Shown: positions 7,353-62,961 of the stretch, piece by piece | Numbering within the stretch: the stretch's first letter is position 1 | Layout of the letters: each line of letters starts with the position of its first letter | DNA from: Prosopocoilus inquinatus | Lineage: Eukaryota; Arthropoda; Insecta; Coleoptera; Lucanidae | Direction: 5' to 3' | Assembly: GCA_036172665.1 (NCBI GenBank) | Contig: CM069877.1 | Location: 26,065,001-26,129,000, forward strand | DNA: 64,000 nt | Position numbers and translations under genes: made by a program | Notes under the pieces: generated by a model | Seen by the model: only the letters and a program-made list of their open reading frames with translations | What the model was told of the DNA's origin: nothing | Databases searched by the model: none

Positions 7353-7602
7353 ATGGATGATATTTTGAGGGATAACGAAATTTTCGAAGACGATCTCGAT
7401 ATTTTTGAAGTAATTGATCATGGCTTTCCAATAATAGGACATTCGGTCAGATAAATTTCATGATTATGACGATTTAAAATTTTATTCAAGATTTCCATTA
7501 ACTAAGCAATCAGTCCTTGAGTTATTAATTGTGATAGAATATGAGTTTGACTATCCACATGACAGTTAAGAAAAATCTATAATTGATTTGCAACATGCAT
7601 AT
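7353..7602 (+). pseudogene. Harbinger transposase, N-terminal part
   Basis: Starts MDDILRDNEIFEDDLDIFEV, then after a frame change reads DKFHDYDDLKFYSRFPLTKQ and LELLIVIEYEFDYPHDS. This is the N-terminal region of PIF/Harbinger transposases. It has an internal stop and a frameshift. The frame is cut at 7602 by the LTR element and resumes at 18561 after the ATAT target duplication, so the insertion is inside this gene. The gene was probably already dead at the time, since its lesions lie on both sides of the insertion. Confidence 0.75.
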
Positions 7603-7988
7603 TGTCACGACCCTGGTAAGATCGAGGGTCGCAAAGGGGGGTTGCTCAGAGGGAGCACTCGCTAGCTAGTAGCGGAGGTACCTTAATGGAATGTTGGAAA
7701 GTTAAAAATAAAAATAACCATACCTTTCAGAAGCGGTTTATTTGCAAAAACTCGAAGAATCCCCTCAGCAAGCAGAGCCCGGTAACCGCCAGGTGACGTC
7801 CACGGCACCGCGCACACACACGCCCGTCTGTCTGTTTGTCTGTCTATCTATCTCCCCGCGACGCGTTTTCCTAGCGGTTTTATTATGCCTGCCTGCTGAA
7901 GTCAGCAAATCATTTATCCCAGTCTATAACTAATTAATTGAAACAGTTATAACAATAATTGATACCTACCTTAGCATCATTTGTGGCA
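7603..7988 (-). repeat. 3' LTR (386 bp)
   Basis: Identical by eye to 18175-18560. In element orientation it begins TGCCACAAATG and ends GGTCGTGACA. AATAAA-type polyadenylation signals are present, for example at 7737-7742 on the minus strand. The 63-codon plus-strand frame inside is antisense and not believed to be coding. Confidence 0.92.
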
Positions 7989-8000
7989 TTTCCCCCCCTC
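7989..8000 (-). promoter_or_regulatory. Polypurine tract
   Basis: On the minus strand AGAGGGGGGAAA lies directly against the 3' LTR. This is the expected position and composition of the primer for plus-strand DNA synthesis. Confidence 0.85.
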
Positions 8001-9536
8001 TGGAGAAAAAACGTCTCCTGACCGTTTCTTAATGGATACAATTACCATATCGTTTTTATTAAAAAGGTAACGATTGAATAGCCACAAATGATACTAGGTT
8101 TACATATACGAATCAATCTAAAAGTAAAAAAGACATATGAAAAACTGTAAACTATCTATATAAAACACATATGTAAGTGAAAAATAAACGCAATACAAAT
8201 TAATTTTACTCAAAACCGCACTCACAGTTTTAGTTTTAGAGTTCGGACGGACACTTTAGCAGTTTGTGGAAAGGGAATCCCTTTACGTTAGTTTGTCACA
8301 GGACAATCCACCAAAATCTTCTACGTAACCACCAAGTTCTCCGGCGTTGTTGACCAGTGGCTTTTTAGGCTCCCCGACGTTAGTGTTTACGGGTTTTTGC
8401 TCAGTGGCCTCTTCAAAAGCAGCAAGCAGTTAAATTGGACCTTTTGATGGTAGTTGGTAATGAGTTCCTCAATGGCCTGTCCCAGATTTGCTGTTGATGA
8501 ACTTAGGCTCTTGTAGTAGAAGTACTCTTGTCCTTTGGTAAATGGTGTGAACAGGACCAACAAGACCCTTGCACGCCCTACTCAATTCAGGCGTGGCATC
8601 TGCAATGTGCTGGAGATTCTTGAGGTTGTAGTTGATTGTCCAGTTTTGTGGAACAATTTTGGTCAAATTCTGGAGGCTCTGTTTCATCCCCATGTTTTTT
8701 TGTGACGGTCGGGTGTATCCCTTTCCCTTGTAATTTGTCCGTCTCCGTACGGTTCATGCAAAATTAAAACAAAAACAAAAGTAAATAATAATAAAAATTA
8801 ATATTAATTAATACTAAATAAACTTCTAATGAATTTACACACACATTTATTATTGTATTTATAAAATTTAATTTTTTTTTTTTTATTATAATCTAGGATT
8901 CATTTAAAGGTTCTGTTATAAATGACATTAAAATATGTATTTGGATAGTTTGAATAATTTTAGTGTGTACAATTTATATATTCATACAACACTTTGGATT
9001 AAAACATTGGGTAGCCTTGTTAATATGTAGATTATTCTAATAAACATATAGTGTACGTACTTTAACTTATGTCATCGAAAATTTCATTCTTTACTCTTTT
9101 CGAGCATACAATACATATTTAATACTTTCAAACAATTAGTCCATATGGCTAATACATAAGATATATTTTGTCTTACGTAACATAATATACTTTTATAAAG
9201 TTTCATTCTCTTTCATTTTCTTTCTTATAGTACTAACTTAGTATTAATGTAATCGAAAATTTCATTCTTTACTTTTTTCGAATATACAAAATACTTGTTG
9301 CAATTTTGCAGTTGAAAATTTCAGTTCTTACTCTTTTCAACTACAATTACTCACTGTAAAATATTTAATAATTAGGCCATTTCATACTTTCAAGTGTTAT
9401 TACTTTAATATTTAACCCATTTAATCATTTCTTTTACTATTAATTTACATAAATTGCGTACCCACTCATTTGCTTTCTAATTATTTACAGGGGGCCCTTA
9501 CATCTTCGATTCTAACTTACTAGGCTGCAGTCCTAG
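8001..9536 (-). other. Post-env region, AT-rich, with a possible eroded accessory frame
   Basis: 1.5 kb between env and the polypurine tract, unusually long for this kind of element. Bases 8760-9530 are AT-rich with no frame. Bases 8270-8757 have a more even base composition and overlapping minus-strand frames. One of 56 codons starts at 8757. A second of 74 codons (8693-8469) is helix-rich, and its continuation in other frames to about 8290 also looks coding-like. I do not recognise the product. It could be a captured gene that has decayed, or a spliced accessory gene. No function is assigned. Confidence 0.35.
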
Positions 9537-11441
9537 TTAATGTAGACTCGACTCTGATGTAGATGCTTTAAGATTAATCTTACAACTTCTCCCGTCTGGC
9601 AAGACAAAGATTCCCTCATCGTACTGTTTTGAACCAACAATTCCTTGCGAATCCCTTCTTGTCACTTTATTTGCACAACATGTTCTTACTTTTAAATAAC
9701 ACCAAATTATAATAACTATACCAATTACAGTTAATACCGTGCCCGTGGTAATGAATCCTATGTGTGTGTTTTTTCTGAAATTAAAATCTAAATCTAGATC
9801 GTCAATATCTTTTAACACCTCATCTAAATTTCTACTGTTTTCTTTTAGCCTACTTCCTTTAACTAAGTCTTCCAACTTATAAAAATTTATTTTGTCAAGG
9901 TCAGCAATCAATGGATTTATTAAATTTCTTTCTGTTGTGTTGAAATGAAAGAATTTCCAGCGTGATGAATATTGAATACTTTTTGTAAACTTAACTGAAT
10001 GAACTGGATTTAAAATTATGTTTTTGGAAAACCCTTTGCACTCTTCAGATAGTGTAATTCTTCCTCTACCCCATAATTCTATATACTCAATTTTTTGGTT
10101 ATTTATGCAATTAACAGTCATTGTTTCTCTGTTTGGTGCTACCAAAATCCACGAGTTATAAACGCCTGACTCAATAAATTTTGTTCTATTCAAATAAATG
10201 ATATGTCTTTCACATACATTGGGCAATTCTTTTACTGGCCGAAATAACTGAACTTCACATGATTGTTGTGAGTCAGATAAAATTGGTTTTTCATAATTTA
10301 AAATGTAGTTTCTGTTTTCTGAAATAAAACAATTCTGAAATTCACTTTCATCTAAATGAAAATATTTATTGTGCAGTTCATTAATTGCTAAATATCGAAA
10401 TTCATTGTTAATAAATATAAAGTTGTTGTCATGTAGTCTAATTGGAACTGATACAGTTTTAAATAAAAGGTAAGGATTTACATGAACTAATGGAATTTTT
10501 AAAGCACAATTCAATTTTGATTGTAGAATAAAAACGTTTACCTTTAAAATTCGCCACAAAAGTGTATTATCCTCATGATCTAAAATATTAAATGGTAATT
10601 TTAGTCCTGGTGGAATATGGTTAATAATTGTATTTAGTTGTTCCATGATAGTCGTGGGTGTAATTAATAAGGGGTGCAAAATTCCTTGCTTCGCAGCAAC
10701 TAATACATTTACAAGATTCGTTGTTTCTAACTGATATTGATCAATTAAAAGAGTTAGCAAAGCTACATGATCCTTCAGTCGTCTATCTATTTTATAAATA
10801 AAATCGATGTCGGTTAAAGTATTGTTTACCAAAAATTTTAATTTTTGAAAATTTTCGAGAATAATTTTTTCATTGTGCTGAAAATGACCAATAGTATTAT
10901 TTAAAGAATCCAAAGTTGATTTAACGACAGAAGTTTGTTTGGCTAAAATTTTACTCATTTGTTTTTCGTTTTTTGTCAATGCTCCTATTGCTTTCTCGAA
11001 ATGTTCTTCATCTTCTGTAGTTAAGGTTCCAAACAAAACTTTTGAAGCTTTACCTACAATATCAAAATACCCTCTTTTTACTCGAACGTGGCCAATGAAA
11101 CTTGGTATTACATTTCTTTCCCAAGTGACCCGATTCATAGTTTGATTTATTAAATTAATGTAATTGCCACATAGTTCATTTTTCTCAAGCAAAGGCTCAT
11201 TACAGATTTCTGTTGTTTCCCTAAACATATTTCTCAGTTGAACAAATTTATCATCGTATGACTCTAAATCTATGTAAGTAATAATATTCCAAAAAGTATT
11301 AGTCAGATATAAATTACCTACATCTTCAAATAAAATTCCTGATGTTTTTTCTAACGATTCGACTTTATATGGAATTTTTACGTCTTCTTCTCCATATCCA
11401 AATGTGAAAAATATCAAGTATAAGAAATAATATAATTCCAT
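9537..11441 (-). CDS. env: Env-like fusion glycoprotein (634 aa)
   Basis: Envelope protein of the retroelement, predicted to fuse viral and cell membranes. A hydrophobic signal peptide lies at about residues 1-17. A furin-type site, RVKR, at 120-123 is followed directly by a conserved amphipathic stretch beginning GYFDIVGKASK, the fusion-peptide region shared by insect errantivirus Env proteins and baculovirus F proteins. A heptad-like helical region follows. A single membrane segment (about 562-582) and a cytoplasmic tail of about 50 residues close the protein, and there are several N-glycosylation sequons. The frame is open from its ATG at 11441. It lies 156 bp after pol and is presumably translated from a spliced RNA; an acceptor-like GTTACAG is seen just upstream (about 11465). 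Function is inferred from family features. Confidence 0.85.
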   Translation of the reverse strand: MELYYFLYLIFFTFGYGEEDVKIPYKVESLEKTSGILFEDVGNLYLTNTFWNIITYIDLESYDDKFVQLRNMFRETTEICNEPLLEKNELCGNYINLINQTMNRVTWERNVIPSFIGHVRVKRGYFDIVGKASKVLFGTLTTEDEEHFEKAIGALTKNEKQMSKILAKQTSVVKSTLDSLNNTIGHFQHNEKIILENFQKLKFLVNNTLTDIDFIYKIDRRLKDHVALLTLLIDQYQLETTNLVNVLVAAKQGILHPLLITPTTIMEQLNTIINHIPPGLKLPFNILDHEDNTLLWRILKVNVFILQSKLNCALKIPLVHVNPYLLFKTVSVPIRLHDNNFIFINNEFRYLAINELHNKYFHLDESEFQNCFISENRNYILNYEKPILSDSQQSCEVQLFRPVKELPNVCERHIIYLNRTKFIESGVYNSWILVAPNRETMTVNCINNQKIEYIELWGRGRITLSEECKGFSKNIILNPVHSVKFTKSIQYSSRWKFFHFNTTERNLINPLIADLDKINFYKLEDLVKGSRLKENSRNLDEVLKDIDDLDLDFNFRKNTHIGFITTGTVLTVIGIVIIIWCYLKVRTCCANKVTRRDSQGIVGSKQYDEGIFVLPDGRSCKINLKASTSESSLH

Positions 11442-11597
11442 TTCAATTTTCTTGCTTATGACCCTGTAACAATTCTTTATTTATATATACAGTCTACACT
11501 TCAATTGGAGGAAAAAAAATCCAACGTATGATAAAAATACTTAATTATATCCCCTTAAAATTAAACTTATTATTTATTTGTTTATTTAAGTAAAAAC

Positions 11598-14294
11598 CTA
11601 TGGCGCCCATTTTTCGTAATAAGGAGCTAAACGCGAAATGTGAACTGTCTCTCGTTTGGCCTTTTTGTCTTTTCCCGATTCTATAACGTAATTTAAGTTA
11701 TTTCGTTTTTCAACTATCGTATATGGGCCAAAATATTTTGGTTGTAACTTATCGCTCTTTCCTACTTGTCTGATGAACATTTTTAATTTTACCTTATCTC
11801 CTACTTCAAAACTCGCATTACGATGTTTTTCGTCATATCGTGTTTTATCAATTTTTTGTTGTTTAATAATATTATTACGAGCTTCTTCTCTTAACTTTAT
11901 AATTGCTTTTTGATTACGCAATGCAAAATCAGTTGTCATTAATTGATTTATTTGAGCATCAGACGGTAAAACAGGTTCTCTGCCATAAACTAAAGAGAAA
12001 GGGCTACATTTGATAGTTTCCTGACGAGTGGTATTATACGCAAATACGCAATGAGGAAGGAAGACATCCCAATCCTTTTGAGACGTGGAACAATATTTAC
12101 TCAACATGTCTGCCAACGTTTTGTTTAGCCGTTCGGTGAGTCCGTTGGTAGAGGGTTTGTAAGCTGTAGTAAAACTACTCCCTGTGCCTAGCAACCTTAA
12201 TAACTCTGTGACGAGACGTGACATGAAGACAGCTCCCCTGTCGCTGAGTAACTTTTTTGGTGAACCATGTCGACAAATGATCTGCTGCATGATAAATTTT
12301 GCAACAGCTTCTGCTTTACCATTAGGAAGGGCTTTGGCCTCCGCCCACCTAGTCGCATAATCTGTCGCCACAACGATAAATGTACAACCAGAATTGCTTT
12401 TTCGAAAAGGGCCTAGAAGATCTATACCAACCATTTCGAAAGGATTTCCTACTTCGATCGGATTTAATAATCCTGCAGGTTTTTGATTTAACCCTTTACG
12501 CATTTGGCAATCAGGACATCCCTTAATATATTTTTCTACATCGCGCTTCATACCTTCCCAAAAGTATTTTTTTCTAATTTTGTCTAATGTTCGAGAAATT
12601 CCTAAATGTCCGCTAATAGGTTCATCGTGATTATTATATAAAATTTCTGCGCGTATATCTGCTGGTATTACTAGTAATTTCGTTTCTGTGTTTGGTTGAA
12701 TTTTATATAAAATGCCGTTTATAATTTCAAAATTTTTAGCTGCCCTTTGTAAAGCCGGTCCACCGAATTGTTCATCGTTAATAGCTGCAATAATCTCTTG
12801 TATTCGTGCATCCTTAGATTGTAAGTTAATTAATTCCTTTGTTGAAATTAAAAAAGATGGAACCTCTAAAGCTTTAGATTGATCGAATGTAGTTGCCTCC
12901 GTACAGGGATATCTAGAAAGAGCATCTGCATCCTTATTTGCGGATCCTTTTTTATGAAAAATTTTATACGAATATTCCATCAATTTGAGTGCCCATCGAA
13001 CTAACCTGCTACCGGGAGTTTTTAATGATTGAAGCCAGCAAAGAGAATGGTGATCAGTTACTATTATGAAATTTTTTAAGCCCCAAAGATACGATCTGAA
13101 GTACTCAACTGCCCAAACTGCAGCCAAACATTCTAATTCACTTATTGTATAATTTTTCTCATACGGAGTTAGAGTGCGAGAAATATAAGACAAAGGATGA
13201 AGTTTACCAGATATATGATCTCTTTGAAGTAGAACAGCTCCAATACCCACACCACTAGCATCTACGTGTAATTCTGTATCCGCCAATGGATTGAAATGAT
13301 GTAAAAGAGGTGGACTTGCAAGCTTAGATTTCAGTATATTAAATGCACTTTCTTGAGATCTTTCCCAGATGAAATTCGACTTGGATCCGATAATATTATA
13401 AAGAGGTTTAGCTATAATTGAGAAACCAGGAATGAATCTTCTGTAGTAATTGCATAAACCTAAGAAACTCTGCACATCTTTAACCTTTTTTGGAGTTGGA
13501 AAAGAAATTACCGCCTCAACTTTTCGATTGTCTGGTTGAATACCATTACCAGAGATGTTAAATCCTAGAATATGTATGTTTTTATAAGCGTACTTACATT
13601 TAACAGGTTTTAGAGTTAGACCTGCATTTCTGATGCATTGGAAAACGTTATTTAATCGATCTAAATGTTCATCAAAAGTTTTACTTACTATTATTATATC
13701 ATCTAAATAAATAGCGACCTCTTTCCATTTTAGATCTTTAAAAACTGTATCCGTTAATCTCTGGAAAGTTCCCGGAGCATTACAGAGACCGAAACTAAGT
13801 CTATTAAATTCAAATAATCCGTCATTCGTTATGAACGCTGATTTATGCTTATCCTCTTCTTTAATCGCACACTGCCAATAACCGCTATTTAAATCTAAAG
13901 TTGTAAAATAACTATTTCCGCCGAGAAAATTTAAAATGTCATCGATTAGGGGCAGCGGATAAGCGAATTTGGTTGTAATTGCATTTAGTTTTCTGTAGTC
14001 GACACAGAAACGGTAGGTGTTGTCAGGTTTTTTAACTAAGACCACTGGGCTTGCAAACTGACTATCTGAAGGACGAATTATACCCAACTCCAACATTTCT
14101 TGAATTTGATTTGAAATGATATTTCTTTCTTTAAGGCTCACTCTATAAGGACGCGATTTTACCGGTGCATTATTTCCAATGTCAATTGTGTGTTCGGTTA
14201 AATGTGTCAGTCCTAACATTGATGAATCCCATGCCATAATGTCGTTATTATTTCGAAGTAATTTACTTAACCTTTGTTTTTCTTTATCGCCCAA
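11598..14294 (-). CDS. pol: Pol: reverse transcriptase, RNase H, integrase
   Basis: About 898 residues, all three enzyme domains present. Reverse transcriptase: LDLNSGYW with D134 and YLDD at 196-199, which with D134 forms the metal-binding triad. RNase H: VDASG, then SELECLAA, then VTDHHS. Integrase: zinc-binding HHCC (HLGISRTLDKI to CPDC), core DDE residues in GIDLLG, LLSDRG and GLTERLN, and a GPY/F module (KYFGPYTIV) near the end. No chromodomain. The frame overlaps the end of the protease frame by 28 nt and lies in its -1 frame, so Pol is most likely made by a second ribosomal frameshift rather than from its TTG at 14292-14294. No lesion seen. Confidence 0.92.
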   Translation of the reverse strand: MGDKEKQRLSKLLRNNNDIMAWDSSMLGLTHLTEHTIDIGNNAPVKSRPYRVSLKERNIISNQIQEMLELGIIRPSDSQFASPVVLVKKPDNTYRFCVDYRKLNAITTKFAYPLPLIDDILNFLGGNSYFTTLDLNSGYWQCAIKEEDKHKSAFITNDGLFEFNRLSFGLCNAPGTFQRLTDTVFKDLKWKEVAIYLDDIIIVSKTFDEHLDRLNNVFQCIRNAGLTLKPVKCKYAYKNIHILGFNISGNGIQPDNRKVEAVISFPTPKKVKDVQSFLGLCNYYRRFIPGFSIIAKPLYNIIGSKSNFIWERSQESAFNILKSKLASPPLLHHFNPLADTELHVDASGVGIGAVLLQRDHISGKLHPLSYISRTLTPYEKNYTISELECLAAVWAVEYFRSYLWGLKNFIIVTDHHSLCWLQSLKTPGSRLVRWALKLMEYSYKIFHKKGSANKDADALSRYPCTEATTFDQSKALEVPSFLISTKELINLQSKDARIQEIIAAINDEQFGGPALQRAAKNFEIINGILYKIQPNTETKLLVIPADIRAEILYNNHDEPISGHLGISRTLDKIRKKYFWEGMKRDVEKYIKGCPDCQMRKGLNQKPAGLLNPIEVGNPFEMVGIDLLGPFRKSNSGCTFIVVATDYATRWAEAKALPNGKAEAVAKFIMQQIICRHGSPKKLLSDRGAVFMSRLVTELLRLLGTGSSFTTAYKPSTNGLTERLNKTLADMLSKYCSTSQKDWDVFLPHCVFAYNTTRQETIKCSPFSLVYGREPVLPSDAQINQLMTTDFALRNQKAIIKLREEARNNIIKQQKIDKTRYDEKHRNASFEVGDKVKLKMFIRQVGKSDKLQPKYFGPYTIVEKRNNLNYVIESGKDKKAKRETVHISRLAPYYEKWAP

Positions 14295-15835
14295 TTCAGC
14301 ACTAATATTAAAGTGTTGTTCACTTTGTACATTACAAAGTTTTTGTTAAAATCAAAATTTTCTTCATTGTAGACTGTGTCATTAGCAAAGTCATCAGTTT
14401 TGTATAAATAACCCAATACTGTTCCTTTACGTAATGTGGAAGCAAAGTTTCCATAATTAAAAATATTTATTTGATGGTCACCTAGAACTTCAAAAGGATC
14501 GTTTAATTCTAATTTATTTTTATTCAGAAACTCCATTCTAGGAAAGAAAGTGTAAAATGTTACTTTCTCATTGTTATTTAAATTATCTATTGTAACGTGA
14601 CATTTTTTATTACATTTTCGTGCAATAACTACGTCTTCACATAGTTTAATTTTAATTATTTTATTGTTCGAAATTTCATTTACAATTTCTTGATCAGGTA
14701 ATGTATTCCATAGATCAACGCTACTATTTTGTATGGTATTGGATGCTTCTGTTTCCGTTTCCTTGTTTAAATGATATATTTTGATATTAATATTGGAATT
14801 TTTGAAGACATACAAGATCATATTTTTTATTATATCCCATTTACATCCATCTAACCCACAGGCAATTTTGGGTATAGCTAATTTATTGATCTCGTTTATT
14901 GTCATGTGTTTTTTCAAATTGCATAAGCTATTAAAAATTGCTTCATAAGTAGGTTTTTCATTTGACTTGTTTTTTGTGACTAAATAATATATAAAACGCT
15001 TATTGATTTTGAGGAATGCTAAACCTCCCACTTTAGGATTTTGTTTTTTAAGTTGCGTAACATTGTTAAATTTTTCTTTAAAAACCCTTGCGATTCCCGA
15101 GGACATTTGCAAATCTCGCGCCACACAATGAGCTAAACTGTATTGTTTCGATATTTTAAATAAATCTCCGCATTCTTCCTTAATATTTGAATACGTTAAC
15201 GTTGATTGAGAATGCTTAACAAAATCTGAAAAACATTTTTCGTAACTAATGGAAAAATCTTCATTTTCTTTGAAAATATGTGGGGTATCCTGACCTATGC
15301 TAATACTAGAACGCTGCTGACCGTCGTTCGCTATCGTGTTACTTCCAAAGTCAACGTCCGTGTCGTTCTTAAACATTTTTATGCGGTCTTTTTTAAAAGT
15401 TACAGTGTTATTAATGAAATTTATGTTGGCCTGATTGTCCTTCAAAAAGGGATACCCTAAAATAATATGTGGTGATAATTTATCAACAACTAAAGCTTTT
15501 ATAGGATAGCTTTCTTCGTTTATGTTAATTACGATTTCAGTTATACCTATAGGATAAACGTGATAATTATTTATTGTATTTAGGATTAATTCCTCTTTTA
15601 AAGGAGAAATTTTATTGGCAAAACAAGGTCTTACTAAATTGTATGATGAACCAGTATCTAATATCGCTGTTATATATTTATTGTTTACTTTTCCTTTAAT
15701 TTTAAGTATATTCGTATCTTTTAAAAATACAGGCGCTACGGTGGCTGGCGTTGTATTATAAAATGTCCAATTTTTACTGTGACCTTTATTAACATTTTTA
15801 TTATTATTACTTAGGCCCTCGCCGTTTGATTCCAA
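14267..15835 (-). CDS. pro: Protease plus TARG1/OARD1-like macrodomain
   Basis: 522 codons in the -1 frame relative to gag; the frame is open to about 15888, so it is best read as a Gag-Pro frameshift product. Residues 50-150: retropepsin with DTGS at 60-63 and a flap-side ILGYPFL at 125-131. Residues about 213-355: a macrodomain. It opens with GDLF (223-226), then SLAHCVARDLQMSSGIA, RFIYYLVTKNKSNEKPTYE and IPKIACGLD. This is the TARG1/OARD1 subfamily, which hydrolyses ADP-ribose esters on Glu/Asp and ADP-ribose on DNA. K288 and D329 correspond to TARG1 K84 and D125, both 41 residues apart. Residues about 390-480 resemble the beta-rich, dUTPase-like linker common between protease and RT in gypsy elements. 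Substrate in the particle is unknown. Confidence 0.9.
   Translation of the reverse strand: MESNGEGLSNNNKNVNKGHSKNWTFYNTTPATVAPVFLKDTNILKIKGKVNNKYITAILDTGSSYNLVRPCFANKISPLKEELILNTINNYHVYPIGITEIVININEESYPIKALVVDKLSPHIILGYPFLKDNQANINFINNTVTFKKDRIKMFKNDTDVDFGSNTIANDGQQRSSISIGQDTPHIFKENEDFSISYEKCFSDFVKHSQSTLTYSNIKEECGDLFKISKQYSLAHCVARDLQMSSGIARVFKEKFNNVTQLKKQNPKVGGLAFLKINKRFIYYLVTKNKSNEKPTYEAIFNSLCNLKKHMTINEINKLAIPKIACGLDGCKWDIIKNMILYVFKNSNINIKIYHLNKETETEASNTIQNSSVDLWNTLPDQEIVNEISNNKIIKIKLCEDVVIARKCNKKCHVTIDNLNNNEKVTFYTFFPRMEFLNKNKLELNDPFEVLGDHQINIFNYGNFASTLRKGTVLGYLYKTDDFANDTVYNEENFDFNKNFVMYKVNNTLILVLNWAIKKNKG
14276..14282 (-). promoter_or_regulatory. Candidate pro-pol frameshift site
   Basis: GAAAAAC on the minus strand, in the register A-AG|AAA|AAC of the protease frame, two codons before its stop at 14267-14269. 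Pol lies in the -1 frame here. It is not a perfect XXXYYYZ heptamer, and a CAAAAAC further upstream in the overlap is an alternative. Confidence 0.4.
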
Positions 15836-15846
15836 CAGGACAGAAT

Positions 15847-17613
15847 TTAGAGCCTCGTGAAATTCTGTCCGTTCCGGTTTCCCTGCGCTTTATTATATTG
15901 TTGATTTCTGTTAAAATATTCAGAATTTTTATTACATATCAATTCATTGTAAGGTGACGGATAATTAGCTCTTTGAAAATTGTTTTGGGTTTGATAGCAA
16001 ATATTAGCAGTATGGCCACTTCGATGACATAATTGACAAATAGGTCTGCCGTTCAATGTTCTACTGCGATTTTGTAACGTGAAAGAATTATTTGGAATTC
16101 TATTTATGTTATTAGTAACTGGAGCTGGTTTTTGGTTAACTCCCCCACGGTGACTCTGATAATTTTGCCTATATTGATATAAGTTGTTATAGTTCCGTTT
16201 CGTGAAATTCTGATTATAGTTAGGATAAAATTTCTGATTTTGATTAAACTTGACCTTAGTAAGCTCTAATTTCATTTGCTTCAATTGCTCCGCAATGTCT
16301 GTTACAGTATTCTGTAAAACTTGTGAATTTTGTAGAAATTGTGAATTTTGTACCGAATGTGAGTTCTGTGACGTAGAACCATTCAGTTTACTTATGGTTT
16401 TCGGCAGTATCTCTGTTTTGAAAGAGTGACCTTCTCGTTCTGTTTCAGCTACATATTCAATGAAATTTTCAATTTCCCCGAGCGATGAAGGACGCGTTAA
16501 ATTTATCATATATCTGTGATATGGTAATAACCCTGCAATAACTCGTTTAATAATGTCCGTTTCGGCCATATTTGGGTTAACCTCGTAACATAAGTCTAAA
16601 ATATCGTAGTAATATGTTATTAATTGCTCATCTGTTTGTTGTCTGCGAGAAATTAATCTAGCTTCAATATCTGTATCGTAACTCGGACCGATAAATTTGT
16701 TTTTAAATTCTTTTGTTGTCAATGTCCAGTCGGCATTTGGATGTCTTTTAACAAATTCCCGGAACCACACTGCAGCCGAATTTCGTAAAGAATTACCAAA
16801 ATAACATAATTGAAGTGTATCATCCCACGCGTTCGACTGTGCAGCTAATTTATAATTTTTTAAGAAATCGGAGGACGGATCAAAAATAGGTGGTGGGAAA
16901 TATTTCGGTTTTGTAGGAGTTCGATTTTGAAGTAACATTGATAATGTGTTATTGACTGTAGCAGGATTACTGTTTGAGAAATTATGAGATTCTTGTGATT
17001 CTAAAATAAAAGTGTCCGCTATGTGAGCATCCCTAACTGGTTTAGAACTTTTTCTAGAATTAGCTTGAGGAAATCTCACAGATTCATTAATTGTTTCTGT
17101 TGGCAACTGGAATCTTGTTGATTTTGGAATGGCACCGGTTTTTTTGATATTAGAATATGGGGTAATTTCTGAGCCAACCACCACGTCATAAGAATTATCA
17201 TTTGTCATACGAACTGACTCGAACATTTTTGATGAATTATTATCTCGGTCAAAAGCAATTTCGGGGGGTAGTACACTGTTAATAGAGAAACTTGAGGGCG
17301 GCGGCGGCGGGGGTATTTCTGAATTATCGGAAAGGCATTTAAATTTATTTATTTCTGGAGGAGTACTTTCCGGAAGAACTGTAATAGTGGTCGGTTCATT
17401 AATTGTAGTAACTATCGATGAAATTGGAGGAACCACGGGTTCTAAATATTCACTTGCGGCAGGAACGGGTGTTTGACTAGGAGAACGCGGAATTAGCGAG
17501 CTCCTCGCGCTAGGGAAAAATACATCCTTTTCCAAATTTATCTCTATATCGTATTTATTTTTGTCGTCTTCTTTGCTTTGTGAACGAGTCTTAGGTTTTT
17601 GTCGTTTATCCAT
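15847..17613 (-). CDS. gag: Gag polyprotein (588 aa)
   Basis: Structural protein that forms the particle and packages RNA. Basic N-terminus, then a proline-rich region with a PPPPPP run near residue 105. A capsid-like helical region (about 240-400) includes FKNKFIGPSYDTDIEARL and typical retrotransposon-gag features. Asn/Gln-rich segments follow. A single zinc knuckle CX2CX4HX4C (CQLCHRSGHTANIC, residues 526-539) lies near the C-terminus. Start ATG at 17613 is the first of the frame after a leader of about 560 nt. It ends in the overlap with the protease frame. Gypsy-type errantivirus Gags usually lack a zinc knuckle, so this one is unusual for an env-bearing insect element. The frame is open throughout. 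Confidence 0.88.
   Translation of the reverse strand: MDKRQKPKTRSQSKEDDKNKYDIEINLEKDVFFPSARSSLIPRSPSQTPVPAASEYLEPVVPPISSIVTTINEPTTITVLPESTPPEINKFKCLSDNSEIPPPPPPSSFSINSVLPPEIAFDRDNNSSKMFESVRMTNDNSYDVVVGSEITPYSNIKKTGAIPKSTRFQLPTETINESVRFPQANSRKSSKPVRDAHIADTFILESQESHNFSNSNPATVNNTLSMLLQNRTPTKPKYFPPPIFDPSSDFLKNYKLAAQSNAWDDTLQLCYFGNSLRNSAAVWFREFVKRHPNADWTLTTKEFKNKFIGPSYDTDIEARLISRRQQTDEQLITYYYDILDLCYEVNPNMAETDIIKRVIAGLLPYHRYMINLTRPSSLGEIENFIEYVAETEREGHSFKTEILPKTISKLNGSTSQNSHSVQNSQFLQNSQVLQNTVTDIAEQLKQMKLELTKVKFNQNQKFYPNYNQNFTKRNYNNLYQYRQNYQSHRGGVNQKPAPVTNNINRIPNNSFTLQNRSRTLNGRPICQLCHRSGHTANICYQTQNNFQRANYPSPYNELICNKNSEYFNRNQQYNKAQGNRNGQNFTRL
15877..15883 (-). promoter_or_regulatory. Gag-pro -1 frameshift slippery site GGGAAAC
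   Basis: The minus strand reads caG|GGA|AAC in the gag frame, a canonical XXXYYYZ heptamer, about 30 nt before the gag stop (15847-15849). The -1 frame is open from just upstream of this site through the whole protease-macrodomain frame. The same heptamer is used at gag-pro junctions of some betaretroviruses. Confidence 0.8.
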
Positions 17614-18174
17614 ATGTCTTCAAGTCAATGTCCGTTATTTTATGAAGAAGGAAAAAAAAGAAATTAAACACGTGTCATTTGTAACGCAATTACGGAATCT
17701 TATTACGTAAAGTAAAAATGCAAATAATGTAACTTCACGCATTTCCTGTTACGTTCGCGGTTTCAGAATTCGACACCATCCGCTTGCCTCCGTCATCAGA
17801 AAAAAAATATTTCATTAACGTAAATAATTAAAATATTACAATAAATTATTTTATTTTCATTCCCGCACATATTATTATTATTATTATTAAATTTTGTTTA
17901 AAACAAGTCATGATTATAAATAATCGAAAACATATATATATAAATCGGAGAAATACTATTAACATTGTATTAAAATTACTAGAAAATAGTTACCGTTATT
18001 TGAAACAAAATAAGTAACAGAATAATATCATCCTAAATTTTTCTATATAAGTACACGAAAAAGTGGTGCTTGAACGTATCAAAAAAAACTTTTCAAACAA
18101 ATTCGTTAAATTACATTTTTGCATTACAAAAATAAAATAAAATCAAATAGATCGCTTAAGGCGCCTCCACCACT
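17614..18174 (-). promoter_or_regulatory. 5' leader with candidate primer-binding site
   Basis: Untranslated leader, expected to hold packaging signal and splice donor; neither can be pinpointed. Two bases inside the LTR (18160-18172, minus strand) the sequence TGGTGGAGGCGCC begins with the TGG expected of a tRNA 3' CCA match. I could not identify the tRNA. Confidence 0.5.
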
Positions 18175-18560
18175 TGTCACGACCCTGGTAAGATCGAGGG
18201 TCGCAAAGGGGGGTTGCTCAGAGGGAGCACTCGCTAGCTAGTAGCGGAGGTACCTTAATGGAATGTTGGAAAGTTAAAAATAAAAATAACCATACCTTTC
18301 AGAAGCGGTTTATTTGCAAAAACTCGAAGAATCCCCTCAGCAAGCAGAGCCCGGTAACCGCCAGGTGACGTCCACGGCACCGCGCACACACACGCCCGTC
18401 TGTCTGTTTGTCTGTCTATCTATCTCCCCGCGACGCGTTTTCCTAGCGGTTTTATTATGCCTGCCTGCTGAAGTCAGCAAATCATTTATCCCAGTCTATA
18501 ACTAATTAATTGAAACAGTTATAACAATAATTGATACCTACCTTAGCATCATTTGTGGCA
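18175..18560 (-). repeat. 5' LTR (386 bp)
   Basis: Same length and, by direct reading, same sequence as 7603-7988. It should hold the promoter. It is followed on the outside by ATAT, the target duplication. Confidence 0.92.
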
Positions 18561-19954
18561 ATATACCTAACCTACATTTTTTGCAATAATGATAGTGTCT
18601 CGCCAATGAACCATTTACTGACTACTTTAAGATTTTTTCCGAGAGCATGACATTTATCAGCTGTTGCGGATGGTATGGGGATGTACACAGCAACTGTTTC
18701 CCAAATTATAGTTAGGGTATCGGAAGCCATTGCTGGCTTATGGAATCAGTATATCAAGATGACCAAAATCGATTTTACGACATTGATCGATTTCTGAGGG
18801 TTGTGGGTGCTCTTGCTCACGACGTTGGGGAAGTTTTCCGTAATAGCATATTTTTCTATTAGTTTTCATGGTATCTGTGATGCTAAATTAAGAATTTTTC
18901 ATATCGTAGCAAAGTAACTTGGTTCAGTTCATGATGCTACTACACAGGGTGCTGCATTTTGAAGCGCAACATAGGAAATTCCATGTTAATTTAAATGTGC
19001 TCAAATATTGGCTTCCCTAATTATTTTATAACAAAATTCCGTTCAGGTTTTTTAAAATACTCTTCAAGATGAAGCTGTCTGTGGAGTTTGAGATTTTTTT
19101 TTATTTGCTCAGTTTGGAGATATTTAAAAAAAATTCATTAACTAAATCAATTTTTACCAAACTATTAGCACGGCCAGTAAATGTTAAAATAAATTACTGA
19201 GAAAGCTTTATCTATCAATCTGTTTTAAAAACGACTAGATTTATTAATTATCTGTCCAGTTTTCACTATTATTGATCAAGGCTGTGCTGATAGTTTGGTA
19301 TAAATTGAATTTAGACGCAGAATCTTTTTTAAATATCTTAAAACCGAGCGAACGAAAAAATCTCAAACTTCACAAACAGATTCATCTTAAAGAGTACTTT
19401 AAAAAACCTAAATGGAAATTTGCTATACAATAATTAGGGAAGCCAATATTCAAGCACCTTTAAATCAACATGGGATTTCCTACGCTGTGTTTCAAAAGGC
19501 AGCACCCTGTATGCAATAATAGCCGAATTAGAACCAGAAGAGAAAATGGGGAATAAGCAAACAGTTTACTCTTAGGTGTATGATTGAAGTAAAATTCAAT
19601 TTGTCTTTATTTATGGGAGATAGAGGATATCTCCTTCGGTCATATTTTTTTACTTTGGCAGTAAATCCAGCCACTAGAGCAGAAAGTTTTTATATTGAGA
19701 GTCATGTAAGACACAAGAAATGTAATAGAGCGATTGTACGACAAACTGTAATTCCTCCCACTGCTGTATTGTAACATTTTGCTAAACAAAGAAATGAGCT
19801 AGAACCACCACCGGCAGAAGGCATTAATGAGCATGAACTCGAGGTATTAATAGAAAATGGACAAGTTCCTGATACGCATGACAATAATAACAATTTACTT
19901 AATCAATCTAGAAATTATTTAATTAATAATTATTTTACAAATTTAATTGTATAA
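18561..19954 (+). pseudogene. Harbinger transposase, C-terminal part
   Basis: Continues the gene cut at 7602. Recognisable blocks in several frames: NNDSVSPMNHLLTTLRFFP and SAVADGMGMYTATVSQIIV (helix-turn-helix and N-terminal core region, 18588-18740), then near 19610-19740 GDRGYLLRSYFFTLAVNPAT and the HVRHKKCNRAIV block (the typical GD.GYPLRPYL...NP and TRNVIER region), and an acidic C-terminus ending at about 19954. A 567-bp MITE (18944-19510) splits it again. Multiple stops and frameshifts. It meets the accessory gene tail to tail with an overlap of about 12 bp. Confidence 0.75.
18944..19510. mobile_element. MITE with about 230-bp inverted arms
   Basis: Starts ACAGGGTGCTGC and ends GCAGCACCCTGT. 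The arms (to about 19175 and from about 19280) match with few differences. It interrupts the Harbinger transposase. No coding capacity. The ACAGGGTG terminus is common in insect MITEs; superfamily not fixed. Confidence 0.75.
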
Positions 19955-22580: not shown

Positions 22581-24123
22581 GTTAAGTTAATCACCCACCT
22601 ACATACATAAAAGTAAGTTTAAATCATCTTATTTTAATAATTCGCATTCCTTATACTTTTATCCAGTAAATGAAAATGAAATAAAAACTATAATTCAAAA
22701 TCTTAAAAACAAATCTTCAGTTGACATATATGGTTTCTCCATCAGTATTCTGAAGCAAATAATAGAGGAAATATCCATACCTTTAACATTGGTATTAAAC
22801 AAATGTATCGCCGAAGGAGTTTTCCCCAATAAATGGAAAGTCGCTAGAGTAGTGCCCGTATATAAAAAAGGTCCCGATAACGAATACAACAGTTATAGAC
22901 CAATTTCAGTGCTGCCAGCTGTGTCAAAAGTCTATGAAACAGTCATAAAAAGCAGACTCGTCAAATTTATGGAAGTTAACAATTTGTTGAGCACGAACCA
23001 ACATGGATACCGTAAGAACAGATCGACCATAACAGCAATGATGGACATACTCTCCGAAATAATAGAAGCATTAGATTCACATAAAGCAGTGCAAGTTGCT
23101 TGTTGTGATTTATCAAAAGCATTCGACACAGTGAACCATCAGACACTAATAAATAAACTACACTATTACGGAATTAGGGGTGTACCATTACAAATTTTAA
23201 CATCGTATCTGCAGGATCGTACTCAAATAGTTGAATGGAATAACGAAAAATCTTCCACCGACAGGATACTGCAAGGCGTTCCGCAGGGATCCATCCTGGG
23301 ACCTGTCCTATTTTTAATATACATAAACGATCTTGTAAAAACCATAACCGCAGATAGTGTTTGCTTATTCGCGGATGACACCACATTCATAAATAAAAGT
23401 GATAATGAGGACAAATTAGAAGAAAAGATGCGCTGTACTCTGGAAAATGCAATTGTGTGGATGACTAGTAATTCACTATTATTAAATAAAGAAAAAACAC
23501 AACAAATAAAATTTAGTGCAAAACCAACAGACAACAATAAGTGCGTAAAATTCCTTGGCCTATTAGTGGACAGTCGGTTGAACTGGACACAACATATACA
23601 ACAACTGTGTAAATTATTAACATCTTGCGTGTATAGTATACGTCGCTTAAAACGGATCGCAACATATCAAGTAGCTCGCACGTCCTATTACGCGAATTTC
23701 CATAGCAGGGCCACCTATGGCATCATCTTCTGGGGTACATCCACTCAAGCATCCAGAGTATTCTTGCTGCAAAAGAAAGCGATAAGGGCCTTATGTGGAG
23801 TAAGGCAAAATGAAAGCTGCAGAGAAGCATTTAAAACGGAAAAAATACTTACCATTCCAGGCATGTACATACTTACATGCTTAAAATTTGTTCACTCCAG
23901 GCGTCATAGGTTTGCAATAAACGGAGAAAATCATTTATACAACAAGAGAAAACGAAGAGCACTGCAGATCCCACTTCATCGATTAACTCGCACTCAGCAA
24001 AGCATCGATTATTGGGGACCAAAATTGTACAATGCATTGCCGCTACATATAAAGCAAAAAAATAGTAACCAGTTTAATATATACATCAAAGATTTTTTGT
24101 TAAAAAACTCGTTTTACTCCTAA
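22581..24123 (+). pseudogene. Non-LTR retrotransposon (LINE) reverse transcriptase, 5'-truncated
   Basis: About 514 codons are open to the stop at 24121-24123, starting without a true ATG since the element is 5'-truncated and lacks its endonuclease. RT blocks in order: fingers (YRPISVLPAVSKVYE), ACCDLSKAFDTVNH (motif A), LQGVPQGSILGPVLFLIYIN (motif B), FADDTTF (motif C), then KFLGLLVDSRLNW and a C-terminal region with YGIIFWG and RALCG as in Jockey/CR1-type LINEs. The RT itself looks intact. It reverse-transcribes the LINE RNA at the cut target. A (TTGA)n tail at 24325-24347 marks the 3' end. It inserted into the left part of the Polinton. Clade between Jockey and CR1/L2 not resolved. Confidence 0.85.
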
Positions 24124-62070: not shown

Positions 62071-62961
62071 AAGGCAGATTTTGTTTTAAATAAATTTAAT
62101 TCTTTTCATAATAGATTATAATTTACAGTTGTAAAAGAAAATAATAATTCATTGAGTTTTCTTGATGTAAATATTATCAGACAGAATGATAAATTAATTA
62201 CTAATTGGTTTCATAAACCTACCTGGTCAGGTAGGTACATAAATTTTCACTCGTACACACCTAAAAATTATAAAATTGCAACTATTATTTCATTAACTGA
62301 TCGAGCTATTTTACTTTCTGATAAAGTTTTCATTTATGATAACTTAAATTTAATAAAGAAAACTCTTATTCAAAATTCTTATCCAATAAATCTTATTGAA
62401 TCAGTAATTAAAAATCGTATTAAATACTTACAAAATTCAAATGTCTCTAAAAACATTAGACAAACTTCGAATCATAAATACATATCTTTGCCTTATATTG
62501 AACCATTACACAATACATTTAAACACATTTTCAAAAAACATAATTTAATTTTAGCCAGTAAATCTGTGAATAATTTAAATTTAATTTTTTCGAATTTAAA
62601 AACCAAAATACCGAAATTAAAACAACCTAACGTGGTTTATGAAATCAAATGTTCAAATTGTAATTCTGTTTATATAGGTGAAACGAGCCAAAATTTAAAA
62701 AAACGTTTAGACCAACCTAAATATCATATTCTAAAAAATAATCAAAATCATTCAATGCTTGTAGAGCATTCATTAGTAAATAATCATAATTTTGATTTTG
62801 ATAATACTGACATTTTGTACAGTGAATCTAATATTTTTAAAAGACGTTTCATAGAAATGTGTAAAATTAAAATGTCTCGAAATTCTATTAATAAACGTAC
62901 GGACTTTGAAAATTTAAATGACATATTTTGTAGTTTTCTGGACTCTTTAAACAAGATATAG
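62071..62961 (+). pseudogene. Penelope-like RT C-terminus and GIY-YIG endonuclease
   Basis: One open frame of about 295 codons, lacking the catalytic RT palm. Contains LSFLDVNIIR and WSGRYINFHSYTPK (RT thumb region), a helical linker, then the endonuclease: VVYEIKCSNCNSVYIGETSQ with the CX2C zinc pair and the GIY/YIG-type VYEI...VYIG pair, KKRLDQ, VEHSLVNNHNFDF (His pair) and RRFIEMCKIKM with the catalytic Glu. The nuclease would nick target DNA. As the frame is open, this half of the protein may be only recently inactivated. It is followed by an (AT)n tract that hosts another insertion. Confidence 0.82.

Follow-up and report, generated by a model that had tools for sequence, protein, structure and literature searches.

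Structure of the element

The window, by which we mean the whole 64,000-nucleotide stretch of the Prosopocoilus inquinatus genome that was analysed, contains an LTR element of 10,958 bp at 7603-18560 on the minus strand. In the order in which the element is read, its features are as follows.

18175-18560, minus strand: 5' LTR, 386 bp, TG...CA
18155-18174, minus strand: primer-binding-site-like stretch TGGTGGAGGCGCC, directly after the 5' LTR (read by eye)
15847-17613, minus strand: gag, 588 aa (Retrotrans_gag, Ty3_capsid)
14267-15835, minus strand: protease-macrodomain frame, 522 aa (540 stop to stop), in a phase different from that of gag
15386-15691, minus strand: retropepsin-type protease domain, residues 49-150 (RVP_2, E 4.6e-6)
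14768-15181, minus strand: TARG1/OARD1-type macrodomain, residues 219-356, with K288 and D329 as the putative catalytic pair
14336-14698, minus strand: linker region between protease and reverse transcriptase (PR-RT linker region), at about residues 380-500 (printed translations compared by eye)
11598-14294, minus strand: RT-RNase H-integrase frame, 898 aa, out of phase with the protease-macrodomain frame
9537-11441, minus strand: env, 634 aa, F-type, with RVKR at residue 120 (Baculo_F, E 3.1e-35)
7989-8010, minus strand: polypurine tract AGAGGGGGGGAAA, directly before the 3' LTR (read by eye)
7603-7988, minus strand: 3' LTR, 386 bp, TG...CA, identical to 18175-18560

As the two LTRs show no difference over 386 bp and the target duplication ATAT lies outside both ends (7599-7602 and 18561-18564), the window insertion looks young. 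The element has the order PR-RT-RH-IN, with Pfam RVT_1, RT_RNaseH and integrase domains, an env gene downstream of pol, and the errantivirus-like combination of an LTR pair with a short target duplication. We use the label errantivirus-like on the grounds of gene order, LTRs and env, the RT tree having taken in RTs of this genome only. In the 1.55 kb between env and the 3' LTR, all start-to-stop frames are of 74 aa or less.

The first-pass annotation of this DNA had described the element as intact. The identical LTRs, the ATAT duplications and the open gag and env agree with that description, but pol does not: the protease-macrodomain and RT frames are out of phase, and the window copy thus lacks a full set of genes that are open in the usual phase. 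Within the 250-nt bin containing the junction, all 11 sister pieces that were compared differ from the window copy by at least one change in length that shifts the frame. The domain lies in an open frame of up to 1,430 aa in a sister copy, and the copies L004-L006 and L010 are open from the macrodomain to the end of the sequenced piece read. We considered whether the separate protease frame could be a normal third frame, as in betaretroviruses, and rejected this, as protease, macrodomain and RT lie in one frame in those four copies and in L014, an element with an added ubiquitin-specific protease (USP). The window copy is structurally complete with a broken pol, and sisters that are open across the junction exist.

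Two other frames in the window were noted in passing. At 22789-24123 on the plus strand, a 444-aa RT-bearing frame belongs to another retroelement (RVT_1, E 3.4e-36). At 62152-62961, also on the plus strand and among the repeats at 60-64 kb, a 269-aa frame matches GIY-YIG weakly, at the cut-off; perhaps, as a guess, it is a Penelope-like element.

A TARG1-type macrodomain in the protease frame

The proposal that the protease frame carries a TARG1/OARD1-like macrodomain was borne out by phmmer, by a structural model and by the catalytic residues, and the motifs quoted in the first-pass annotation are present in the frame. Among 177,635 distinct PDB sequences, human TARG1 (4j5r) matched the 522-aa frame with E 1.9e-32 and 115.8 bits, and the next other macrodomain among these PDB chains followed at E 0.11. 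The Pfam Macro profile alone is weak (E 0.0019; 18.6 bits, below the cut-off of 22). K288 aligns with the K of 'YYLITK' in TARG1 and D329 with the D of 'GCGLD', at the spacing of 41 residues that had been claimed; we take these TARG1 residues to be the catalytic K84 and D125 of the human enzyme. An AlphaFold2 model, for which the input was an alignment of the window domain with 45 database proteins, has a mean pLDDT of 93.5, and its best PDB match is TARG1 with ADP-ribose (4j5s; rmsd 0.6, TM 0.89/0.98). TARG1 entries take ranks 1-8 in the structure comparison, and bacterial DarG is the first other family (E 6.3e-10). Of the solved macrodomains, TARG1 is the closest to the window domain in sequence as well as in fold.

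Copies and families in the same genome

Elements other than that of the window carry the domain as well. A search of the 650-Mb assembly, in which 150 of 1,314 first-look candidates were scored, gave at least 152 macrodomain matches. Reading covered 12 short window-family loci, 20 regions of 10 kb and eight flanks, in which several Ty3/gypsy lineages carry a macrodomain. It occupies one of three places in the polyprotein: PR-macro-RT, RH-macro-IN or IN-macro, the last often accompanied by a CCCH zinc finger. Thus, the possibility raised earlier that it is a one-off insertion absent from related elements does not apply, as many copies and families have it. The loci read fall into six groups.

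Group (a), PR-macro-RT-RH-IN: the window family L001-L012, L013b and L027
Group (b), PR-macro-RT-RH-IN-USP: L014, together with L026, L028 and L025, which have UCH matches
Group (c), PR-macro-RT order: L015, L016 and L031 (the L031 frame without a PR match)
Group (d), macrodomain between RNase H and integrase: L023 and L024
Group (e), macrodomain after integrase: L017
Group (f), macrodomain after integrase, then a CCCH zinc finger: L018 and L013a

The RT-RH part is 77% identical to that of the window element in L013b, where the frame starts just before the macrodomain, 74% in L027, and 47-48% in group (c). The RTs of L019-L022, L029, L030 and L032 are 97-100% identical to that of L018, and many further matches of 43-46% identity over the same query range probably belong to group (f). 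The CCCH zinc finger adjoins the C-terminal macrodomain directly in L018 and in L013 (1455-4250), and by eye it also follows the macrodomain in proteins of Molorchus, Brassicogethes and Gonioctena.

Within group (c), L015 has 1,233-bp LTRs with no difference and L016 has 972-bp LTRs at 99.8%. Over about 200 codons, their RT cores have 100% DNA identity, whereas other stretches of pol differ by 10-50% and the macrodomains are 65% identical, a pattern that points to recombination (recent recombination or conversion) among elements of this type. Both also have additional coding capacity in the env position. A KH-domain ORF (PF00013, 49.9 bits; L037:1605-2183, plus strand) lies within the LTRs of L015, and L016 has a Monjiviricetes-type fusion glycoprotein (L035:1180-3212, plus strand; 414 and 254 bits in two overlapping frames). 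No clear Gypsy capture of Jingchuvirales glycoproteins was found in PMC10084718 (in excerpt).

In L014, a single frame of 1,764 aa (L014:579-5870, minus strand) includes a USP after the integrase (Pfam UCH, 191 bits), in which the Cys and His boxes are present and for which the nearest solved relative is USP2 (E 7.3e-43). The element has identical 381-bp LTRs and Baculo_F matches in two separate frames, and its RT-RH part is 75% identical to that of the window element. Frames of exactly 1,764 aa occur at no fewer than 17 places in the genome, one of which was read. In L026 and L028, strong UCH matches lie in a frame of their own; the match in L025 is partial. On C5, at G000:C5:47386747-47410139, three macrodomain matches of the USP family follow one another at an exact spacing of 11,482 bp, which looks like a tandem array of this element.

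Fusions in other species, and matches in viruses

In Molorchus minor, four proteins (P0003-P0006) have protease and/or integrase C-terminal domains with the macrodomain on their C-terminal side. The clade of IN-macro domains, with support of 99/97 and 100/99 in two trees, includes proteins of Brassicogethes (P0009), Gonioctena (P0011), Pyrocoelia (P0012), Aromia (P0025) and Macrosteles (P0053, annotated as OARD1-like). These five are short predicted proteins without a precomputed integrase domain, so their link to elements follows from membership of the clade and, for some, from flanking likeness by eye. We take all six genera to be beetles or, in one case, a leafhopper. Among the best 120 of 241 database proteins, five have precomputed integrase-side Pfam domains: SH3/p58 C-terminal in P0022, P0075 and P0081, and H2C2 in P0031 and P0101. 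By eye, P0101 runs from the end of RNase H through the macrodomain to H2C2, as do L023 and L024 of group (d). In a 493-aa Logan protein (P0007), which carries no retroelement domain, a TARG1 domain 51% identical to that of the window is joined to an N-terminus that resembles a zinc finger.

In the viral structure library, the best match was VP8 of Kadipiro virus, 49% identical to the window domain, followed at 24-36% identity by macrodomain-type matches in thrips-associated RNA viruses, a cressdnavirus and an isopod iridescent virus. These matches would favour a pressure shared by arthropod hosts. A scan of viral_contigs gave 258 pattern matches, with no relative among them.

Origin of the domain

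A host-type source for the domain, as had been proposed, is supported by an OARD1-like gene elsewhere in the genome (L042), in which a short GT...AG intron splits the domain. The element macrodomains read are uninterrupted, as capture through RNA would predict. An intronless 200-aa TARG1-like ORF near the end of C2 (L041:426-1028, plus strand) may be another cellular copy of the gene.

The point at which the domain was gained or lost can be approached through the RT. Of 151 RT matches (from 150 of 3,684 candidates that were scored), 77 listed places have at least 60% identity. Among the matches listed, a macrodomain match lies within 6 kb of 19 of the 21 RT relatives at 95% identity or more and of 34 of the 47 at 74-89%, and within 6 kb of none of the nine at 60-64% (one of which was read), in a test where the macrodomain places omit most rows of the 43-46% class, none of which lies by eye within 6 kb of these nine RTs. 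The one that was read, L043 (64% RT identity), has a protease, a short spacer and the PR-RT linker region, with no macrodomain between. These results suggest that the domain was inserted cleanly near the base of the window lineage, a gain being more likely than a loss.

Macrodomain trees (155 columns; row P0075 was left out of the second) disagree in their deep branches. Grouping the 28 element-linked domains as one clade was not rejected (AU p 0.132), nor was a single clade of window-type and L015-type domains (AU p 0.284).

Conservation of the domain

The putative catalytic K and D are kept in 33 of the 34 element copies read, the window copy included, a sample made up mostly of high-ranking matches and thus biased to good copies; the same count took in two further loci that are not elements, L041 and L042. 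The sole departure occurs in L019, in the second of its domains; this copy has stops in its RT. Loss of K288 and D329 from all other copies, which would have spoken against the first-pass annotation, is therefore not what is seen. Both residues also occur in all 19 database proteins taken as element-linked by their integrase or protease domains, their clade or their likeness, a set that includes P0007 and four near-identical Molorchus copies.

The Ka/Ks comparison that had been suggested was made between families and within them. Between families, NG86 dN/dS of the macrodomain is 0.11-0.20 in seven of eight pairs (the eighth was not computable), at synonymous sites near saturation. Within families, the ratio ranges from 0.05 to 0.71 in 14 of 15 pairs, with few changes, and the fifteenth pair has no synonymous change; this is as expected of decaying copies and is no proof of selection. 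Between L015 and L016, the macrodomain is a conserved island: blocks of 50 residues within it are 60-72% identical, whereas identity is 26-53% over the preceding 150 residues and 46% immediately downstream, from where it rises again to 60 and 78% in the linker region. When L014 is compared with L026 or L027, the macrodomain is only modestly above its flanks. In the window lineage, RT is the better conserved of the two, at 72-77% identity against about 50% for the macrodomain.

Proposed function

We regard it as fairly probable that the domain is an active ADP-ribosyl hydrolase of the TARG1 type, captured from the host and kept in Pol to undo host ADP-ribosylation that restricts the element. 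In this account, an errantivirus-like Ty3/gypsy lineage would have acquired a mono-ADP-ribosyl hydrolase from host OARD1 mRNA and retained it in Pol, where it lies between the protease and the PR-RT linker region. Made together with protease and RT, it would enter particles, to be cut out or tethered there, and would remove ADP-ribose from Asp and Glu of element or host proteins and from RNA or cDNA ends, undoing a PARP-type mark with which the host restricts the element. The first-pass annotation had suggested that virion proteins or reverse-transcribed DNA might be the substrate. The account starts from the modelled fold, the catalytic residues, copies, conservation, absence of the domain in the nearest RT relatives seen, and host gene, from which we infer activity, particle location, target and benefit. 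The low dN/dS between families, the conserved island in L015 and L016, the three polyprotein positions, the retention of K and D and the presence of the fold in viruses of other classes support it; the weaker conservation of the domain relative to RT, its modest contrast with the flanks in L014, the broken frame of the window copy before RT and the within-family dN/dS weaken it. TARG1 acts on ADP-ribose attached to acidic residues, DNA, RNA and thymidine (PMC8883491, in excerpt), and in Drosophila without PARP-1, mobile-element RNA is mostly raised, an effect that the authors consider possibly indirect (PMC7712786, in excerpt). No report of ADP-ribosylation of an insect retroelement product was found in the literature searched.

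An alternative with the same chemistry is that the domain cleans ADP-ribose off cDNA ends or RNA and thereby makes integration possible, without acting on any host defence protein. The domain does adjoin RT or IN in Pol in the arrangements read, and the two nearest folds, TARG1 and DarG, both act on DNA. However, at least one relative, at 64% RT identity, is without the domain, which argues against a general need of gypsy integration for it, and the USP beside the macrodomain in one family points to protein marks; we think this alternative unlikely. Less likely still is a role as a reader, in which the domain would bind PARylated chromatin or DNA breaks and so hold the integration complex there, with hydrolysis as a side effect. 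Macrodomains bind ADP-ribose, and in the RH-macro-IN and IN-macro elements the domain neighbours integrase, but a reader could do without the two catalytic residues, and both are retained.

The stops or truncation in some copies, and within-family dN/dS values of up to 0.71, could be those of a functionless passenger that was captured and then spread along with the elements. This is very improbable given K and D in 33 of 34 copies, the between-family dN/dS of 0.11-0.20 in seven of eight pairs and the long open frames in many listed copies. A one-off insertion, or a chimera or misassembly that fused a host gene with an element, was rejected; nothing was found in its favour, and the 12 window-family copies, the further families and the other species bring its probability close to nil.

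The hydrolase reading has a natural extension in the USP family, which suggests ubiquitin as a second target. In human cells, ester-linked ubiquitin on protein-bound ADP-ribose exists; treatment with MacroD1 or USP21 reduces this ester-linked ubiquitin or collapses the ubiquitin smear, and the paper states that TARG1 was tested on ADP-ribosyl-ubiquitin (PMC12000418, in excerpt). Taken together with the USP family, these findings would allow a mixed ADP-ribosyl-ubiquitin mark. More broadly, and as a tentative idea that we consider possible but rather doubtful, ADP-ribosylation, partly in this mixed form, could be a general insect defence, against which a TARG1 cassette was captured repeatedly, shuffled among gypsy lineages into three positions, paired with a deubiquitinase once and matched in unrelated arthropod viruses; that one pairing would then erase both halves of the mark. 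Elements with a macrodomain, with or without a USP, hint at an arms race over ADP-ribose and ubiquitin tags. Should the domain prove active, these elements would demonstrate a restriction of insect retroelements by ADP-ribosylation and would supply natural TARG1 variants with a testable question of target. The family with both enzymes would be a ready system in which to learn whether mixed ADP-ribose and ubiquitin marks work against mobile elements.

Comparison with known systems

The element domain has the fold of TARG1/OARD1 (C6orf130; rmsd 0.6 to 4j5s), 42-44% identity to it, the same catalytic Lys and Asp and the same domain length. However, TARG1/OARD1 is a stand-alone cellular enzyme, whereas the element domain is intronless, multicopy and placed within a retroelement polyprotein. 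LTRs, a 4-bp target duplication, gag, the order PR-RT-RH-IN and an F-type env are family traits of the errantiviruses and Metaviridae, and the window element has them in common with errantiviruses and other env-bearing Ty3/gypsy elements. It differs from these by the TARG1 domain between PR and the PR-RT linker region and, in the sister family, by the USP after IN. Macrodomains of alphaviruses and coronaviruses, which have a counter-defence role, share the fold, but are 15-19% identical and come from RNA viruses. The DarG antitoxin macrodomain is the next nearest solved fold and has the catalytic Lys in common with TARG1 (PMC8883491, in excerpt), but it is 18-22% identical and partners a bacterial toxin.

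Among reverse-transcribing elements, fish epsilon-like retroviruses have also gained a macrodomain, with macro-domain or CNPase ORFs described by Basta et al. (2009), as cited in PMC4977317 (in excerpt). Going by that description, these are vertebrate Retroviridae in which the genes are additional ORFs, whereas the window-type elements are Ty3/gypsy and carry a domain of the TARG1 class inside Pol, in several lineages. LTR elements of bdelloid rotifers carry a dUTPase, a GDSL esterase or an exonuclease and thus resemble the present elements in the recurrent capture of enzymes across diverse retroelements, but the enzymes are others, the esterase and exonuclease form an ORF3, and the abstract mentions neither macrodomain nor USP (PMC5408684, in excerpt). 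The first-pass annotation knew of no Ty3/gypsy element or errantivirus with this domain. Among the titles and abstract openings listed by our search, which covered mainly papers outside subscription journals, we likewise found no paper that reports either a macrodomain or a USP from Ty3/gypsy elements; for a macrodomain in a reverse-transcribing element, the fish retroviruses are the precedent (PMC4977317, in excerpt). What sets the present elements apart is the TARG1 class of the domain, its place inside Pol, its three positions, its occurrence in several gypsy lineages and the USP that accompanies it in one of them.
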